Shown here: positions 38,780 to 45,074 of the stretch, one piece after another
Numbering within the stretch: the stretch's first letter is position 1
How the letters are laid out: every line of letters begins with the position of its first letter
Origin: Dechloromonas sp.
GTDB taxonomy: Bacteria; Pseudomonadota; Gammaproteobacteria; Burkholderiales; Rhodocyclaceae
Length of the DNA stretch: 64,000 nt
NCBI GenBank assembly: GCA_028687035.1
Contig: JAQUAX010000003.1
Span: 1 to 64,000 of the forward strand
Direction: 5' to 3'
The notes under the pieces: model-generated
The model's database searches: none
What the model was told of the DNA's origin: nothing
Seen by the model: the letters and a program-made list of their open reading frames with translations, nothing else
Position numbers and translations under genes: made by a program

Positions 38780-38856
38780 CCGCCCGTAGCTCAGCTGGAT
38801 AGAGTACTGCCCTCCGAAGGCAGGGGTCGTGCGTTCGAATCGCGCCGGGCGGGCCA
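38780..38856 (+). tRNA. tRNA-Arg (anticodon CCG), site of element integration
   Basis: A 77-nt cloverleaf with encoded CCA. The acceptor stem CCGCCCG pairs with CGGGCGG; the anticodon loop CT-CCG-AA gives anticodon CCG (codon CGG); the T arm has TTCGAAT. Its 3' half is duplicated downstream at 43706-43752, and a shorter remnant occurs at 44431, marking it as an attachment site for integrative elements. Confidence 0.96.
38827..38856 (+). repeat. attL core (30 bp, tRNA 3' end)
   Basis: The last 30 nt of the tRNA, including the T arm and CCA, recur without change at 43723-43752. Including the anticodon arm the match extends to 38809, with one base deleted in the distal copy. This is the usual footprint of a tyrosine integrase acting on a tRNA gene. 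Confidence 0.9.
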
Positions 38857-38870
38857 ATACAAAAAGCCGG

Positions 38871-38904
38871 AAACCCGCATAGCTCAAGGCTTTGCGGGTT
38901 TTTT
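38871..38904 (+). terminator. Terminator-like hairpin just inside the element
   Basis: AAACCCGCA / TGCGGGTTT form a 9-bp stem with a 13-nt loop and a T-run. It lies 14 nt after the tRNA and would end the tRNA transcript now that the original downstream DNA has been displaced. Confidence 0.75.
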
Positions 38905-38934
38905 GCATTTATGCTTTTGTAATTCAAAATGCGG

Positions 38935-38954
38935 CCATGTGAAAACCATGTAAA
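38935..38954 (+). repeat. Integrase arm-type site pair, left end
   Basis: Two tandem copies of CCATGTxAAAA: CCATGTGAAAAC followed by CATGTAAAA. The same tandem motif occurs near the other end at 43589-43610. Position and repetition suggest arm-binding sites for the integrase N-terminal domain. A weaker third copy (CCATGCGGTTT) lies at about 38971. Confidence 0.55.
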
Positions 38955-39110
38955 AAACCGCTTCCCGTAACCATGCGGTTTTGCGGACGAAAGCCCCATG
39001 ATGGACATGAGGCTTTCGGCACAATCACGCGGGTGAAGCAGAGGAAAACCGCGCTTGCGCTGCCGGTGTTACATGCCACCTCCGGCTGGGCGTCTGAATG
39101 CTTTTTAGGG

Positions 39111-39134
39111 GTCGGAAATTATCCGACTTTTTTT
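39111..39134 (+). terminator. Terminator-like hairpin
   Basis: GTCGGA / TCCGAC with a 5-nt loop and a run of seven T on the + strand. It sits between the left end and the first small gene and would block transcription entering the element from the tRNA side. The 254-nt stretch between the tRNA and this point holds two further small dyads (for example CGAAAGCC / GGCTTTCG at 38988-39018) but no gene. Confidence 0.65.
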
Positions 39135-39150
39135 GTCGGGTATATACATG

Positions 39151-39375
39151 TCAGGAAATTGACCATTCCCGAAACCACGTCAGGCGCAGCCGCTTCCGGT
39201 GCAGCAAGCGATACAGTGCTGCCTGTGTCCATTCGCGGCCTCGGCTGCTGGTCATTCCGGCATCGTTCAGCATCGCCACAATGCGCCGCGCCGCAATGCG
39301 TGGCATTTGGCGCTTGATCGCATGGACAGCCGCGACGATGCGCGCATTGTGGGCGGCGATTTCGGCGAGCGTCAT
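39151..39375 (-). CDS. Small protein resembling a recombinase-domain fragment
   Basis: 74 aa. The run IVAMLNDAGMTSSRGREWTQ, then ALYRLLHRK, resembles the recombinase domain of large serine recombinases (pattern: ALN..G..T.RG..W....V..IL). The length allows only this DNA-binding-like module, with no catalytic domain. The start overlaps the preceding small gene's stop (ATGA), implying coupling. Last gene of the minus-strand operon of the element. Confidence 0.6.
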   Translation of the reverse strand: MTLAEIAAHNARIVAAVHAIKRQMPRIAARRIVAMLNDAGMTSSRGREWTQAALYRLLHRKRLRLTWFREWSIS

Positions 39376-39533
39376 ACGATCCGCGCCAGCGTCCCAAGGA
39401 TCGCGGCCAGGTTGGCGGCATCGGCTACGGGGATCGCCCCTGTCCGTGCCATGCGATAGATGCGCCGCGTCTCGTTTGCCACTTCGGACGCATCGCGCAA
39501 GGGGATGCGGATGCGCTGTTTAGTCTCGGTCAT
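39372..39533 (-). CDS. Hypothetical 53-aa protein
   Basis: Opens MTETKQRIRIPLRDASEVAN and ends ILGTLARIV. A good SD (GAGGGCGGAT) precedes the ATG, and the stop overlaps the next start. Pattern of basic and amphipathic residues; may be a small DNA-binding or adaptor protein. No family recognised. Confidence 0.55.
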   Translation of the reverse strand: MTETKQRIRIPLRDASEVANETRRIYRMARTGAIPVADAANLAAILGTLARIV

Positions 39534-39545
39534 ATCCGCCCTCGA

Positions 39546-40061
39546 TTAGCAAAATCTGGCGTTCAATGTCGCCGGAATGCCGTTTGCCTTCTTTGTCCAG
39601 CCGATCAGGTCTAGCGTCTGGCGCAGGCCGGTGACTGCGGGCTTTGTGCCAAGCTGCTGCGCGGCAACGGCGGCGTCAAAATATCCAGCTTGGGCGGCTT
39701 CCAGCTTCGCCACGGCTGCGGCATAGGCTTGCGCGGCATCCTCGACCAGATCAAGAAGCGCGGCCATGCTGGCGTGCTGGCGCAGGAAGGCATCGGCGGC
39801 GGCTTTTTTTTGCTTCGCCAGTTCGGCCTGTTCGGCCTCGACCACGGCGACATGTGCAGCTTGCTCTGCCACGCGACGACGTTCCACTGCACGCTCGGCA
39901 AGGCGTCGGCGGTCGTCAACGGCATCAATGGCGGCATCGTCCTTACCGGCTGCAATCGCAGCCTTCCATTCCCGCACCACGCTTTCAAGTTCGCGCTCGA
40001 CCACCTGTACGGCAATCATGCTATCGGCATGGGCTTTCTTCAGTTGCTCGACCGTCGCCAT
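39546..40061 (-). CDS. Hypothetical coiled-coil protein
   Basis: 171 aa, almost wholly helical: long Ala/Glu/Lys/Arg-rich stretches (about residues 5-130) predict a coiled coil. No signal peptide and no recognised domain. The start overlaps the stop of the 55-aa gene (TAATG). Cargo or scaffold function within the element is possible but not shown. Confidence 0.65.
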   Translation of the reverse strand: MATVEQLKKAHADSMIAVQVVERELESVVREWKAAIAAGKDDAAIDAVDDRRRLAERAVERRRVAEQAAHVAVVEAEQAELAKQKKAAADAFLRQHASMAALLDLVEDAAQAYAAAVAKLEAAQAGYFDAAVAAQQLGTKPAVTGLRQTLDLIGWTKKANGIPATLNARFC

Positions 40062-40228
40062 TACTTGCCACCTTCCCGGCGCTTGTTGATCGCCTCGACC
40101 ATTGCCTTTGTCCGTTCCTTGCTGGCATAGGACGATCCAAGGCGATAACGCTCTTGATCAATCTGGACTTGCGCAAGGTCGCCCCATGTATAGCTTTTAC
40201 CCGGTACTTTGTCGGTCGGTTTTGTCAT
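40061..40228 (-). CDS. Hypothetical 55-aa protein
   Basis: Opens MTKPTDKVPGKSYTWGDLAQ and ends with a basic helix (KAMVEAINKRREGGK). GGAGACATT lies upstream as SD. First of the four tightly packed small genes downstream of the iteron region. No family recognised. Confidence 0.55.
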   Translation of the reverse strand: MTKPTDKVPGKSYTWGDLAQVQIDQERYRLGSSYASKERTKAMVEAINKRREGGK

Positions 40229-40328
40229 GCTGAATGTCTCCTAAAGTTTATTAACTCGTTTTATCTCGAATAACATTATTTTATCATTTTTTAATGTGCC
40301 TAATTTTTAGGCGGAATAACCAAATATG

Positions 40329-40532
40329 GGCGGACAGGTGAATGTCCGGACATGGCGGACATAACATTTATTTTTCTGTCCGTCCGCCCCTGTCGTGAAT
40401 ATTAAAAACCTCCGAAACCCTTGTGTCACAAGGTTTTACGGGGTTTTTGTTTATTTACTAAATCAAGTTCCGGACATAGGGCAGCCCGGACGGACATAGA
40501 GGGCCCCTTTAGGGGGCCTCTAATGTCCGGGG
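40329..40532. repeat. Iteron-like repeats, putative replication origin
   Basis: At least seven copies of (C/G)GGACA(T/G) in both orientations: 40329, the perfect palindrome ATGTCCGGACAT (40342-40353), 40354, 40377-40389, 40468, 40486-40498 and 40522. An AT-rich tract (40246-40320) adjoins them and the rep ATPase gene is next door. This is the layout of an iteron origin. The 312-nt gap also contains a bidirectional terminator. Confidence 0.55.
40405..40447. terminator. Long bidirectional hairpin
   Basis: An imperfect stem with AAAACC..CCG..AACC on the left and GGTT..CGG..GGTTTT on the right, capped by the perfect dyad CCTTGTG-T-CACAAGG (40419-40433). T-runs follow on both strands. It lies between the repeats and would separate rep transcription from the small-gene operon. 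Confidence 0.55.
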
Positions 40533-40541
40533 CGGTGTCTG

Positions 40542-41657
40542 TCAGGTGGTTGCCGCTACGGTGTCGGCTTCGTCATCAATCTGGATTAGCTCAGAATCCT
40601 CAAGCTCAGCAAGGGCGCGCCGGAATGCACGCTTTGCAGAGTCTGGCTTTAGGCCATCGCACCGGCTGGAAATAAAGGCTTCCAGAAGCGCAGCGCGGGC
40701 CATGGTGCCATCGTTTGCCAAAAGCTGGCTGTAGATATGCCCGGAGTGCGTATCGCCGCCCACAAGCGCCGCGATGCGCCTCTGGCGGCTTCCGTCGGTG
40801 CAGACCAAACTGCCAAGCTCGCGCCCCTTGGAGTCCTGCACGCCGACCGATTGATAACGCACTGCCAGCGGGATCGGTTCGGGCAAATTGCGGAATTTAT
40901 GCTTTTCCGATTTCAGCGTAACCAGATCGCCTTGGCGCTCGGCCTCGACAAACCAATCCGAATTTCCAAGTTTTGCATGAGAGCCCATGAATGAATCGCC
41001 GCTTTTTGTGCTGTGATCCACAACCAAAATGGCAACGTCTGGATATTCCTTAATCAAACGCCGAAGGCTTTGGAAAAACCGCGTAACCGATTCTTTTGTA
41101 TCATCGCTTGCCATTGTGGAGAAGGTATCGATGATGACAAGAGCCGGGGCAGGTAAAGGCGGTTTCTTTTCCGATTCAAGATCATCAAACAATTTCATTT
41201 TTTCCTGAAAAGGAATTGTCTGATCTCTACCAATCTTGTTTCGTCGTTCCTCGCGCTCTGCCTCAATGGCATCATTAAAAGCCGAAACAATGGTATTTTT
41301 CAGAAACTTGAAACCGGATGTATCGTCAGAATCAAGCGGCGCAACCGTCGAAACGATTTTAACCGCCGTCCGGGTCTTGTTCGCCTTTTCCCATGCCATG
41401 CGGCGCAGGTGTAGATCATTGCCGCCTTCGCCAGCAAAAAGGAAAGCAGCCCCTGGGGTGACGTCGCGGCCAAGCCAAGGTTTTCCGGCCCCGATACTGC
41501 ATGCAATATCCAGCGCGGCGAATGATTTAAAGCAACCTGGCGCTCCGTAAAGCCAATTGATTGATCCTTTTGCAATTAGGCGATCAACTGTCCATTCGGC
41601 TTTTGCTAGCGAATCGACGGCTGCGGTGCTTGCCCACTGTTTAGCAAAATCAAGCAT
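40542..41657 (-). CDS. RepA-like AAA/RecA-fold ATPase
   Basis: 371 aa. Walker A is GAPGCFKS (about residues 33-40), Walker B LVIIDTFS, with a further LVVDHSTKSG motif, typical of plasmid RepA-type hexameric helicases and related RecA-fold replication proteins. The C terminus (about 300-371) looks like a winged helix. The ATG at 41657 has GGAGG 8 nt upstream; an earlier start is in frame but overlaps the neighbour more. It probably unwinds the element's origin. The gene overlaps the wHTH gene by 8 nt. Confidence 0.85.
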   Translation of the reverse strand: MLDFAKQWASTAAVDSLAKAEWTVDRLIAKGSINWLYGAPGCFKSFAALDIACSIGAGKPWLGRDVTPGAAFLFAGEGGNDLHLRRMAWEKANKTRTAVKIVSTVAPLDSDDTSGFKFLKNTIVSAFNDAIEAEREERRNKIGRDQTIPFQEKMKLFDDLESEKKPPLPAPALVIIDTFSTMASDDTKESVTRFFQSLRRLIKEYPDVAILVVDHSTKSGDSFMGSHAKLGNSDWFVEAERQGDLVTLKSEKHKFRNLPEPIPLAVRYQSVGVQDSKGRELGSLVCTDGSRQRRIAALVGGDTHSGHIYSQLLANDGTMARAALLEAFISSRCDGLKPDSAKRAFRRALAELEDSELIQIDDEADTVAATT

Positions 41658-41898
41658 GCTTAACCTCCGGAACAACAAGGTGATAGAGCGCGAAGCGGTG
41701 AAGCTCGCCAGACTCGCCGGTCGTCCTGATCCACTGGCGCGCAATGTCATATCCGGTCTTGCGAAGCTCGAAGATGCGCGGCGCTGGCGCTGGAATATCC
41801 AGACTGCGGCGAATCTCCGGCGTCGACAACGGGCGCAGGCGCAATGCTTCCAGAAGGCGCTGGCGCTGGGCTTCGCAGCTTTGGCTTTGGATCGTCAT
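41650..41898 (-). CDS. Winged helix-turn-helix protein
   Basis: 82 aa. Sequence LLEALRLRPLSTPEIRRSLD, then RIFELRKTGYDI, fits a winged-helix fold in which SxxEIrrxLxi is the recognition region. Many plasmid and satellite elements place such a gene ahead of repA. Start overlaps the alpA stop (ATGA-like), stop overlaps the rep start. Confidence 0.7.
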   Translation of the reverse strand: MTIQSQSCEAQRQRLLEALRLRPLSTPEIRRSLDIPAPAPRIFELRKTGYDIARQWIRTTGESGELHRFALYHLVVPEVKHA

Positions 41899-42101
41899 TG
41901 ACCACCCCCAAGCTCTGCAACGAGGCGGTCAATGTCATCGCTGCGCCATGCGGTGCAGCGTGCGGACAATTTGACCGGCGCAGGGTATTTTCCGGAAGAT
42001 ACGCCAGCCCACCATGCGCTTTTGCTGACGGGAATAATCGGGTCACAGCCGCGTTCGCGGTCGCCGATGATTTGCCAAATGCGAAGAAAACGATTAGACA
42101 T
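41895..42101 (-). CDS. AlpA-family transcriptional regulator
   Basis: 68 aa. The pattern GDRERGCDPIIPVSKSAWWAG, then GKYPAPVKLS and a W-x-S-DDI end, is the AlpA/MerR-like HTH seen in P4-type satellites and integrative elements, where it activates or tunes integrase/excision genes. GGAG precedes the ATG by 7 nt. First gene of the minus-strand operon alpA-wHTH-rep. Confidence 0.85.
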   Translation of the reverse strand: MSNRFLRIWQIIGDRERGCDPIIPVSKSAWWAGVSSGKYPAPVKLSARCTAWRSDDIDRLVAELGGGQ

Positions 42102-42142
42102 ATAAACTCCAATGTTTTCCACCTTGGCAGCTAACAAATTCT

Positions 42143-42170
42143 TTGACAAAACCTAAGAGTCCTGTAGAAT
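42143..42170 (+). promoter_or_regulatory. Strong promoter divergent from alpA
   Basis: A consensus TTGACA (42143-42148) and TAGAAT (42165-42170) with a 16-nt spacer, facing away from alpA. No open reading frame follows; instead a structured RNA and terminator do. This is one of the best sigma-70 promoters in the window. Confidence 0.7.
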
Positions 42171-42175
42171 CTGCC

Positions 42176-42285
42176 TTGTCGATTGGTGCCAGCCTTTCGA
42201 CAATCCGCTGCCTAAGCGGAGGGATTAAAAAGTATCTGAATTACCTGAAGCCAAAAGGTCAGCCGATCTTTTGGCTTTTCTTTTT
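42176..42285 (+). ncRNA. Candidate ~110-nt structured RNA of the element
   Basis: Starting about 6 nt after the promoter, three stems follow: TTGTCG / CGACAA (42176-42203), TCCGCT / AGCGGA (42204-42220) and a terminator stem GCCAAAAG / CTTTTGGC (42250-42275) with T4-C-T5. The hairpin order recalls the C4/CI antisense immunity RNAs of phages P1 and P4, but I could not compare with a covariance model. It lies between alpA and the integrase. Confidence 0.6.
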
Positions 42286-42354
42286 GCTTCAGTGATTGAA
42301 TAATACCACAATATAAATTATCGTTTTTTTGATGCGGTCTTATATTGTCCAGAT

Positions 42355-42383
42355 AATAAAAAACCCGCTTATTAGGCGGGTTT
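42355..42383 (-). terminator. Integrase terminator
   Basis: On the minus strand AAACCCGC / GCGGGTTT form an 8-bp stem with a 7-nt loop and a T-rich tail, 25 nt after the integrase stop. Together with the RNA terminator it fills the gap of 306 nt before alpA. Confidence 0.75.
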
Positions 42384-42407
42384 GTATTATGGGCGGGGGG
42401 GCTTTGG

Positions 42408-43580
42408 TTAGAGCATTTTGATTTTATTTAACTGCTCTTTTGCATGTGTTGGCTCAAGGTGCCCATAATGTGAATTGATCATATCAATGCTAGTTCCGGC
42501 CAGTCTGGCGACGGTCATCAAGTCCATTCCGTTGATTACCATTTCCGAAATGGCGCAGTGTCGTAACGAGTAGATTACAACCTCGTCGGCACCAACGATA
42601 TTTGCGGCGCTTCTGGCTTCTTGGAACGAGTCGCGCCACGAGTAACGATCCCAAGCTGATCCGTTGTCGCGCACAATCAATGGTTCGTCGACGCTACGCT
42701 TTCCGGCGCATTGCTTGAGGTGCCGAAAGGCATTGGTCGATAGCGGTACGGTGCGTCGCCCGGTCTTGCCTCTTAAAACCAACGTCTGGTTGGTCTGGTT
42801 GAGGTCGCCGACTAGGCATGATGCGATTTCGCCCGGTCGTGCTGCCGTCTCCATTAGCGCCTTGATCAAAGGCTTTAGTTCGGGGCTGGCTGCCGCGTAT
42901 ATGCGCTTGCGTTCTGCGGCTGTCAGGAAGCGTTCGCGGCGCTGCGCTACGTCCTCATATTGGCTAACCCTGTCCCACGGGGTCGTCGCCGATGCCAGTC
43001 CTTGCTTATAGGCAAAATTCAAAGCCGCCTTGAGAGTCCGTAAATTACGATTGGCGCTGTCACGATTGCGGCGCTCGGCGTCCGGGTCGCGTTCGTCGTC
43101 GTCAGTGTCTTTGATCTGGTCATCAAGCCAGCTTTTAATGTGCGCGGTCTTGAGTTTGCCTAGCTCAATACGTCCAATCGGTGCGGAATCAACTAGGCGT
43201 TTGAATCTGCCGGCGGCGTCTGCGGCTGCCTTTTGGCCTTGCTCGTTGGTTTTCTTTGAAACCCGTAAATGCTCGACATAACGAGCGCATGCAACTTTTA
43301 CGGTTACAACCTCATGCGATCCTGTCTCGCACTGGTTGAACCATTCATCTGCCAGCTTTGCCACTGCGTCAAATGTTCCACGGTCATCGTCTAGGCGGCT
43401 TCCGATGGGGTGGTAATGCTGCTTGCCTGCTTCATCTCGCCAGCGGGCTAGCCATGTTCCAGCGCCTTCTGTCAGCTTGCGATAACCGATAAAACAACCC
43501 GCTTTGCGCTTCTCCCAGTAGGGTGCGCCACGTGGTTTTAGTGCCTTGCGTCCTGATGCGGTTGTAATGTCGTCGGCCAT
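42408..43580 (-). CDS. Tyrosine-type site-specific integrase
   Basis: 390 aa. An N-terminal arm-binding region, a SAM-like core-binding domain (about residues 95-200) and a catalytic domain with Arg in METAARPGEI, the H-x-x-R box as SLRHCAISEM (R and His), a later GTS region and Tyr in SHYGHLEPTH. It cuts the tRNA-Arg att site. The ATG at 43580 gives a sensible N terminus; the ATG at 43592 is possible. SD is weak. It lies next to the right att site, as typical. Confidence 0.93.
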   Translation of the reverse strand: MADDITTASGRKALKPRGAPYWEKRKAGCFIGYRKLTEGAGTWLARWRDEAGKQHYHPIGSRLDDDRGTFDAVAKLADEWFNQCETGSHEVVTVKVACARYVEHLRVSKKTNEQGQKAAADAAGRFKRLVDSAPIGRIELGKLKTAHIKSWLDDQIKDTDDDERDPDAERRNRDSANRNLRTLKAALNFAYKQGLASATTPWDRVSQYEDVAQRRERFLTAAERKRIYAAASPELKPLIKALMETAARPGEIASCLVGDLNQTNQTLVLRGKTGRRTVPLSTNAFRHLKQCAGKRSVDEPLIVRDNGSAWDRYSWRDSFQEARSAANIVGADEVVIYSLRHCAISEMVINGMDLMTVARLAGTSIDMINSHYGHLEPTHAKEQLNKIKML

Positions 43581-43588
43581 GATTTTTT

Positions 43589-43610
43589 CCATGTGAAAAC
43601 CATGTGAAAA
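43589..43610 (+). repeat. Integrase arm-type site pair, right end
   Basis: Tandem CCATGTGAAAAC and CATGTGAAAA, the same motif as at 38935-38954 and in the same orientation. It overlaps the alternative integrase start, so integrase binding here could also autoregulate. A second pair of direct repeats, GCTGGACAxTxTTGG, lies at 43627-43641 and 43679-43693 and may bind an excision factor. Confidence 0.55.
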
Positions 43611-43705
43611 TTCTATCACGGATTTTGCTGGACACTATTGGCCTATAGTTCAATAAAAAACAGGTACTTAATAGACTGGCTGGACATTGTTGGATCATAA
43701 ATCCG

Positions 43706-43752
43706 GCCCTCCGAAGGCAGGGTCGTGCGTTCGAATCGCGCCGGGCGGGCCA
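43706..43752 (+). repeat. attR: copy of the tRNA-Arg 3' half
   Basis: GCCCTCCGAAGGCAG (43706-43720) and the 30-bp perfect core (43723-43752) repeat the tRNA from its anticodon arm to CCA, with one G missing between them. No 5' half is present, so this is not a functional tRNA. It marks the right end of the element. Confidence 0.92.
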
Positions 43753-43759
43753 GAATATC

Positions 43760-43797
43760 AATGGGTTAAGTCGTTTCGGCTTAACCCATTTTTGTTT
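43760..43797 (+). terminator. Terminator following the attR copy
   Basis: AATGGGTTAAG / CTTAACCCATT forms an 11-bp stem with loop TCGTTTCGG, followed by TTTTGTTTT. It is probably the original tRNA-Arg terminator. Nearly the same sequence recurs at 44460-44497 after a second tRNA remnant. Confidence 0.85.
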
Positions 43798-43958: not shown

Positions 43959-44294
43959 ATGGCCAAACAAGCGCGTTCCCGCCGCCTTCGCAAGAAACTT
44001 CACCTCGATGAATTCCAGGAACTGGGTTTCGACATTGAAACTGAGCCTAAGGCACCGCTGGACGATCATGCCGAGGAAGCCCTGCTGGTTGCATTCGTCG
44101 AAGGCGTTATCGAGCCGCGTGGCCTCATCTACGGCGGCAGCCTTGCCTGCGGCTATGTTTGCAAGGCGGGGGGCGGTTCTGCGACTGAGGAAGACCGTGC
44201 GGCCGTTCGTGACTGGCTCCAGGCGCGCGCAGAGTTCGCCTCTGTCACGGTCCATGAACTGTCAGATGCCTGGTACGCCAGCATGACCGCTTAA
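43959..44294 (+). CDS. yggL: YggL-family 50S ribosome-binding protein
   Basis: 111 aa. The N terminus MAKQARSRRLRKKLHLDEFQ, then ELGF, is the conserved YggL (DUF469) signature; E. coli YggL binds the 50S subunit. The C terminus (WLQARAEFASVTVHELSDAW) also fits. The gene lies between two tRNA-end/terminator repeats, so it is either captured DNA or a chromosomal gene boxed in by duplication. A GC-rich dyad follows at 44313-44336. The 158-nt region upstream is noncoding apart from the terminator. Confidence 0.88.
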   Translation: MAKQARSRRLRKKLHLDEFQELGFDIETEPKAPLDDHAEEALLVAFVEGVIEPRGLIYGGSLACGYVCKAGGGSATEEDRAAVRDWLQARAEFASVTVHELSDAWYASMTA

Positions 44295-44430: not shown

Positions 44431-44500
44431 CGAATCGCGCCGGGCGGGCCAGAAATATCAATGGGTTAAGTCGTTTCGACTTAACCCATTTTGTTTTGTG
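44431..44500 (+). repeat. Second, decayed tRNA-Arg end plus terminator
   Basis: The last 21 nt of the tRNA (44431-44451), an AGAAATATCA spacer and the same terminator hairpin repeat the DNA at 43732-43801 nearly base for base (one inserted A, one G-to-A in the loop). Upstream, ACTCCGCAGGCGTTGC still resembles a decayed anticodon arm. It suggests an earlier or tandem insertion, or a segmental duplication. Confidence 0.85.
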
Positions 44501-44691: not shown

Positions 44692-44830
44692 CTAAGCGGC
44701 TGCTTTTAATAAGAAAAAAGTGGTTTCAGTTTTTCCGTTTAATCAATTTCACGTGCTAGGATTCATCCCGCGAATCGTTGTGCCGAAGGGGATTTCGGCT
44801 CGCACCAACAGCTCGACAATGAGCGATATT

Positions 44831-44845
44831 CGTACGTTTCGTACG
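44831..44845 (+). promoter_or_regulatory. Tandem CGTACG palindromes before the peptide gene
   Basis: Two CGTACG palindromes separated by TTT lie 22 nt ahead of the ATG, just upstream of the AGGGAG ribosome-binding site. They could be a repressor site or an RNA hairpin masking translation. Seen only in sequence. Confidence 0.35.
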
Positions 44846-44867
44846 GCAATTTCTAGGGAGTTTTTAA

Positions 44868-45074
44868 ATGGCAATTCGTGAACTGCAGCAAGAAGAAATC
44901 GCAATGGTCTCCGGCGGCCTGGATCTGGGCGGCCTGCTGAGCGGCCTGCTGTCGCCGGTCATCGGCCTGGTCGGCGGTCTGCTGAACGTCGTTACCGGCC
45001 TGGTCGGTGGCCTGCTGCAGACCGTCACCGGTCTCCTGGGCGGCCTGCTGGGCGGCCTGCTGGCTGGCGAGTAA
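44868..45074 (+). CDS. Double-glycine-leader peptide with 11-residue repeats (bacteriocin-like)
   Basis: 68 aa. The N terminus MAIRELQQEEIAMVSGG is a classic double-glycine leader (EL..EE...VSGG), cut by peptidase-C39 ABC transporters. The remaining 51 residues are four copies of an 11-residue unit (about xxVxGLxGGLL), starting LDLGGLLSGLL, SPVIGLVGGLL, NVVTGLVGGLL, QTVTGLLGGLL, then GGLLAGE. No Cys and almost no charge; a strongly hydrophobic, Gly-patterned helix. AGGGAG precedes the ATG by 9 nt. No dedicated transporter or immunity gene is nearby. It may be a microcin-like bacteriocin, a signal or a self-assembling peptide. Confidence 0.8.
   Translation: MAIRELQQEEIAMVSGGLDLGGLLSGLLSPVIGLVGGLLNVVTGLVGGLLQTVTGLLGGLLGGLLAGE

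Follow-up and report, generated by a model that had tools for sequence, protein, structure and literature searches.

What a small, repetitive peptide with an export leader might do, when its gene lies far from any visible transporter, is the question raised by positions 44868-45074 of the window (the whole stretch analysed, 64,000 nucleotides, which is contig C19:1-64000 of a 3.33 Mb genome in 24 contigs). The following features were assigned in and upstream of the gene:

44754..44762, + strand: TGCTAGGAT, an extended -10-like element (comparison of upstream stretches)
44805..44850, + strand: two adjacent 5'UTR hairpins, similar to a tandem stem-loop in front of related genes (p about 0.03 in 60 shuffles)
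44855..44860, + strand: Shine-Dalgarno AGGGAG, 7 nt before the ATG (sequence)
44868..45074, + strand: peptide gene, 68 aa precursor plus stop (translation; more synonymous than replacement change relative to relatives)
44868..44918, + strand: double-glycine leader of 17 residues, predicted cleavage after Gly17 (alignment of 12 peptides)
44919..45071, + strand: mature body of 51 residues, hydrophobic, with a glycine stripe, predicted single helix (lag test, glycine period, AlphaFold2)
44930..45050, + strand: tandem hendecad-coding repeats at 33-nt spacing, families D1/D2 (DNA repeat search)

The ORF 44868-45074 (+) is intact, and its translation gives MAIRELQQEEIAMVSGG followed by the 51-residue body. 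The leader ends in VSGG, and the alignment of 12 peptides (A1) showed M1, A2, I3, L6, E10, V14, G16 and G17 to be invariant; the precursor is predicted to be cut after Gly17. The body had been described as hydrophobic and uncharged; hydrophobic it is, but an Asp and a Glu stand towards its ends (net charge -2). At the C-terminus the window peptide ends in AGE, where relatives differ (e.g. GNSCR, GGLFE, GGLHL). No Pfam or NCBIfam family matched the window peptide above cut-off, the best E-values of 12 relatives in these collections were 0.014 or worse, and the Pfam, NCBIfam and PADLOC searches of the peptides returned sub-threshold rows only. Against TIGR03949 (class IIb bacteriocin) the window peptide (P0001) scored 7.8 bits, with a cut-off of 21.5. 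Class IIb bacteriocins of this model (lactobin A/cerein 7B) combine a double-glycine leader with GxxxG motifs, as is the case here.

The hendecad repeat is real, as judged from both the DNA repeats and the residue identity at lag 11 against shuffled sequences. This identity reached 0.53 in the window body; none of 5,000 shuffles was as high at lag 11 and one was as high at any lag from 2 to 24. Two paralogues from the same genome (on contig C11, see below) and three further relatives repeat at lag 11 too (p <= 0.0004 for lag 11, 0.0002-0.0126 for any lag). In the DNA, a 55-nt unit occurs three times at 33-nt spacing, and two of the copies match the reference copy at 75% identity. Four near-identical hendecads had been counted from the sequence alone; the periodicity was borne out, but not the number or the likeness, since about three clear, degenerate units plus degenerate ends were found.

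The glycines follow the same hendecad pattern (4+7). Their spacing peaked at 93-100 degrees per residue, i.e. 3.6-3.87 residues per turn, in all 17 peptides tested of the 20 known (the genes of L021, L024 and L046 were left out), with p <= 0.007 for the alpha band in each. In the whole-spectrum test G039b (p 0.060) and G122b (p 0.230) did not stand out, and a single peptide of the 17, the second of L017, also gave a beta-band signal (p 0.010). AlphaFold2 modelled the precursor as one helix over residues 2-65 (mean pLDDT 88, pTM 0.53; pLDDT 91-98 across residues 21-60), a single-sequence model that says nothing on oligomers. The window body contains seven GxxxG motifs and 16 other peptides contain 3-11, many with Pro between the blocks.

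The earlier note regarded the gene as standing alone, with no transporter in view. As for the window this is correct, the C39 query finding no match in the 64 kb and thus no type I secretion system within 10 kb of the gene; the genome as a whole, however, encodes three such peptides and one C39 transporter above the curated cut-off (129.8 bits). The two paralogues, of 65 and 80 aa and with the same leader type, lie on C11 (232,647-233,105), divergently from genes for an HlyD-family adaptor (423 aa), the C39 ABC transporter (707 aa) and a TolC homologue, the last called through its L017 homologue, which is 52% identical and carries the Pfam OEP match. In its C39 domain, the Cys, His and Asp positions line up with their counterparts in 4ry2 (PCAT1), a bacteriocin transporter of solved structure. 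Hence the parts of a class II microcin exporter (C39 ABC transporter with catalytic triad, adaptor, TolC) are present in trans. A catalytic triad is also reported for CvaB. The sole other C39-type match in the genome fell below cut-off and adjoins a retention-module adhesin; this transporter is presumably LapB-type. The idea of a double-glycine leader for C39 export, to be given up had homologues turned out to have a known, unrelated function without export, or had the genome lacked any C39 transporter and the leader proved unconserved, is supported; neither outcome occurred, because the transporter exists and adjoins two paralogues with the same leader, and the leader is kept among relatives. 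A B12-binding radical SAM gene beside the C11 peptides (L018:8540-10585, - strand) was considered as a modifying enzyme and set aside because a hairpin and a T-rich run intervene, as seen by eye, and the other loci compared gave no match; it is probably transcribed separately from the peptides.

The pairing of peptide and exporter is well supported by their distribution. A protein search of 100 related genomes matched seven, including the weak G087; this and G039:C1:2633723, weak matches inside long frames, were dropped, and the peptide was found in 6 of the 60 genus genomes examined. When the first 150 residues of the transporter were used as the query against the same 100 genomes, 15 matched at E <= 1e-12, with an identity of 68-100% in six (G000, G006, G038, G039, G045 and G046). 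Seven genomes from other families reached 52-62% at best, and two genus genomes 32-38%. The six genomes with a C39 domain of >= 68% identity are exactly the six peptide carriers among the 60. Under random placement such a co-occurrence would arise about once in 5e7, a figure that ignores kinship and counts G038 and G045, which are nearly identical, separately.

Altogether, the close kind comprises 20 peptide genes at 14 loci in 10 genomes (the window, L017-L024, L044-L047 and L064), with one to three copies per locus. In 10 of the 14 loci, that of the C11 paralogues included, the peptide lies beside genes for an MFP, a C39 ABC transporter and TolC, a type I secretion system within 10 kb; the unlinked loci are the window, L024 (on a 5.6-kb contig), L044 and L046. 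Widening the search, with the own genome counted each time, gave 13 matching genomes among 395 from the family, 4 among 399 from the order and 7 among 398 from the phylum; the order sample held the close kind outside the family only in G497. The named genome collection holds at least one relative (L017), and the plasmid records and viral contigs searched held none. Ten of the 13 family-search genomes matched mainly over the leader, and eight of these ten were fetched (all except G409 and G457). They revealed a sister type (L048-L055), in which this leader is followed by a short hydrophobic stretch and a tail rich in Pro and Cys, again with a neighbouring exporter of this kind.

More distant relatives were found in G849, G961 and G1076, which belong to one genus outside the class and encode two double-glycine, glycine-rich peptides each. 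Their leader reads REL/RTLxxxELDxVGGG and the body in most ends like VGGLLGAVGGLLGG. They were located at:

L084:9911-10405
L085:9908-10999
L086:9617-9853
L087:623-856

In three of the four stretches read they have genes for an adaptor (30-33% identical) and a C39 transporter (45-47%) as neighbours; the fourth, L087, has the peptide and no exporter. Several other candidates were rejected as relatives: matches in G853 and G899 lie inside frames of 582 and 683 aa, G1081 has a double-glycine peptide with another body, the peptides next to the C39 transporter of G533 differ in both leader and body, and G622 encodes a long repeat protein without such a leader. The last (L066, G622:C2:6928-7377) is a 234-aa protein with a signal-like start and VTGLVGGL-type repeats.

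The surroundings of the close members offered a hint of function. Tad/Flp pilus genes lie near six of the 10 transporter-linked loci (L017, L019, L023, L045, L047, continued in L078, and L064; Pfam names of the Tad genes were read in L017 and L045) and LapA-type retention-module adhesins near six (L017, L019, L020, L021, L022 and L023). Pilus and/or adhesin genes occur within about 10 kb of nine of the 10, a count over loci that are related within the genus and not independent; the exception is the C11 locus. Among the four unlinked loci only L044 (G122) has an adhesin, a 1,549-aa ORF about 105 bp downstream of the peptide. Since retention-module adhesins are common in the genus, their presence means little and what counts is a position adjoining the operon. 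No pilus or adhesin genes were detected within about 20 kb of the window gene or of C11, the own genome carrying them on other contigs (C9, C16 and C6). Nor did such genes match in the eight Pro/Cys-tail loci fetched, three of them on short contigs, or in the four stretches (9.9-19.9 kb) of the distant relatives. As for signalling genes, an RR-PAS-GGDEF gene follows TolC in six of the 10 loci (L017 and L019-L023; domains read in two). In L017, L019, L023 and L064 the peptides are preceded by a gene for a PAS histidine kinase, which was not matched near L018, L020-L022, L045 or L047.

The earlier note saw no immunity gene beside the peptide. A scan of 209 small ORFs lying up to 3 kb from the 14 close loci, which could miss a fast-evolving, lone or single-helix gene, likewise found no conserved candidate, and no conserved small membrane ORF such as the cognate immunity protein of class II microcins. 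The only small ORFs conserved between loci were a Flp pilin pair (L019/L045) and those of the near-identical L020/L021 stretch; a single one, in L023, encodes two hydrophobic segments. Between orthologues dN/dS was about 0.1 (0.05/0.53 for G038/G006, 0.04/0.30 for G039/CTSoil_122). Constraint was weaker for the window gene against its C11 paralogues, the ratios being about 0.45 (0.25/0.56, C11a) and 0.86 (0.32/0.37, C11b).

The proximity of a tRNA integration hotspot, also proposed earlier, was confirmed through repeats of a tRNA 3' end. The last 48 bp of tRNA-Arg(CCG) (38780-38856) recur at 43706-43752 (97.9%) and 21 bp of its 3' end at 44431-44451. Between the tRNA gene and the 48-bp repeat lies an integrative element (38780-43752), in which the ORF 42408-43619 (-) is, we assume, tyrosine-integrase-like. 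A second partial tRNA 3' end and the same GGGTTAAG palindrome occur at 43732-43797 and 44431-44500, on either side of a gene (43959-44294) that we take to be YggL-like; these repeats suggest a second, older insertion scar. Upstream of the peptide gene, the 9-mer TGCTAGGAT is found again 154 nt upstream of the first C11 paralogue and, among 20 upstream stretches of 400 nt from the 14 loci, only at these two places, which points to a promoter element.

The impression that nothing like this body had been described is not supported, as glycine-zipper double-glycine peptides are known as Cdz-like proteins, and peptides of the general kind were already taken up in the Cdz-like sweep (PMC5380434). 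There, CdzC/CdzD of Caulobacter are contact-dependent glycine-zipper bacteriocins, and the survey counts 239 hits, with immunity genes hard to identify and adhesion genes near many loci. Such systems are marked by killing on contact, aggregates at the surface and an immunity protein, and the survey's criteria include one or two zippers without Pro or charge in between and a type I secretion system at most 10 kb away. The resemblance extends to small, hydrophobic, Gly-rich peptides with GxxxG motifs, a GG-ended leader, type I secretion, one to three copies per locus and frequent adhesion genes nearby; at 68 aa and with a leader ending in VSGG, the window peptide falls within the survey's bounds of 60-151 residues and a leader ending in G[G/A/S]. 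The present family, set beside CdzC/CdzD by its described features and not by sequence, differs from them in a hendecad body rich in Leu instead of Ala/Val/Ile, Pro between the zipper blocks, TolC in the operon, unlinked extra copies and no immunity gene seen. Class II microcins of the microcin V type (PMC9746304) likewise have a double-glycine precursor, a C39 ABC transporter, an adaptor and TolC, whereas here no immunity gene was found, the body is repetitive and some copies are unlinked to the exporter. A third parallel, again of features and not of sequence, is provided by EbfG1-4 and PteB of Synechococcus elongatus, several double-glycine small proteins and a C39 transporter whose cysteine is needed, as PMC4997328 and PMC9981879 describe; a double-glycine peptide and a C39 transporter with the active cysteine are present here. 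According to the same papers, the EbfG peptides act in biofilms, at the cell surface and in the matrix, and EbfG1-3 form amyloid. Particular to the present family are the hendecad body, the Tad/adhesin setting of the close members and the copies without an exporter. No paper naming such a hendecad peptide family, and no double-glycine bacteriocin from Rhodocyclaceae, was found in the literature searched.

Of the three functions offered earlier (assembling peptide, orphan microcin, pheromone), the assembling peptide fits best. Tentatively, and at a little short of an even chance, we favour a peptide exported in trans that packs with itself on the producer's surface and serves attachment or biofilm formation, a reading drawn from comparison and linkage. 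The C39 domain of the C11 transporter would cut the precursor after Gly-Gly, and the 51-residue peptide would leave through this transporter, the HlyD-type adaptor and TolC, the parts being present and the export itself, like the function, presumed. As a single hydrophobic helix with a glycine stripe, it may then pack helix to helix, be retained and aggregate on or near the producer surface, where, as its linkage to pili and large adhesins suggests, it could work with them in binding cells to one another and to surfaces, a biofilm role modelled on the EbfG peptides of Synechococcus. The pilus and adhesin linkage, the lack of a visible immunity gene and the constraint on the sequence argue for attachment; the own loci, the Pro/Cys-tail loci fetched and the distant relatives, all with no pilus or adhesin match, the patchy distribution, as for weapons, and the amyloid of EbfG1-3, as opposed to the helical look of this family, argue against it. 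The main rival, a substantial possibility if one that we would sooner doubt than accept, is an antibacterial peptide of the Cdz-like or class II microcin-like sort. Such a peptide would leave through the same C39 exporter, stay on the surface or diffuse, and insert its glycine-zipper helix into the membranes of non-immune neighbours. This rival shares most features of the attachment reading, and the linkage cannot separate the two since Cdz-like killing systems are often near adhesion genes too. Several Cdz-like traits (length, GG-ended leader, zippers, one to three copies beside a type I system), an exporter with class II microcin architecture, the restriction to six of 60 genus genomes, the paired distant peptides, most of which adjoin an exporter while none has a pilus or adhesin match nearby, and a weak likeness, below threshold, between some members and class II bacteriocin models (E 0.016, 0.021 and 0.03 at best) speak for killing. 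Against it, the immunity scan gave no conserved candidate, cells would have to be protected from the unlinked copies (window, L024, L046) as well, the net charge of the bodies is only -2 to +1, and orthologues are under strong purifying selection.

Two further explanations bear on the window copy and on the signalling genes. That the gene is a functionless duplicate, stranded beside the integration site and decaying, seems unlikely: its distance from the transporter, the nearby integration scars and the relaxed dN/dS against the C11 paralogues would suit it, but the ORF is intact, with a conserved leader, a ribosome site and the promoter-like element common to C11, and unlinked copies are kept in other genomes as well (L024, L044, L046). 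A pheromone role, with the PAS histidine kinase and response regulator beside several relatives as the receiving system, is very unlikely, its hints being indirect or at chance level; the kinase does lie upstream of the peptides in four loci, and one of 12 members resembled a pheromone model at E 0.2, a chance-level value, but the body is long, hydrophobic and repetitive, two or three divergent copies often occur together, and the other loci listed above gave no match to such a kinase. To return to attachment, a more specific version, which we regard as possible and rather doubtful, makes these peptides a new hendecad glycine-zipper family, an all-helical, C39-exported material of the surface or matrix and structural partner of Tad/Flp pili and LapA-type adhesins, tuned via the adjoining c-di-GMP and two-component genes, with satellite copies sharing the exporter. 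If attachment is true, the attachment machinery of this group would include small C39-exported peptides among its structural components, as it does in a cyanobacterium, and genes that are classed as bacteriocins on account of their leader would have to be reconsidered. With few members, a co-occurring exporter and pilus and adhesin genes next to its close members, the family would lend itself to a decision between glue and weapon.

The 5'UTRs of several relatives contain a tandem stem-loop with some covariation, which ends some 27-34 nt ahead of the coding sequence (L017:9300-9440; also L019, L020, L022, L023, L044 and L064), possibly a cis-regulatory RNA of the peptide family; no Rfam match was found there in 14 sources. 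The covariation score of 11 hairpin sequences was 0.274 against 0.178 +- 0.032 in shuffled alignments (3 of 500 as high) and no shuffle in 500 had as many cells paired, whereas neither the number of pairs with both sides altered (121 of 500) nor that of additional pair types (313 of 500) was unusual, and RNAalifold predicted only four pairs from a 13-sequence alignment. With a model built from six sequences, the top ranks went to G038/G045 (E 0.029) and G046 (E 0.043), which had been held out; C11 followed at E 1.2, below some chance places, and neither the window nor G006 was recovered. Because this model, built without the window sequence, missed the window hairpins, their membership is doubtful. 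An 11-sequence model run against nine genomes put its own training sequences on top, which is no proof of a family. Elsewhere in L017 (18294-18370, - strand), near a GGDEF gene and an adhesin, lies a c-di-GMP-I-GGC riboswitch-like match, at 50.1 bits against a gathering score of 59.
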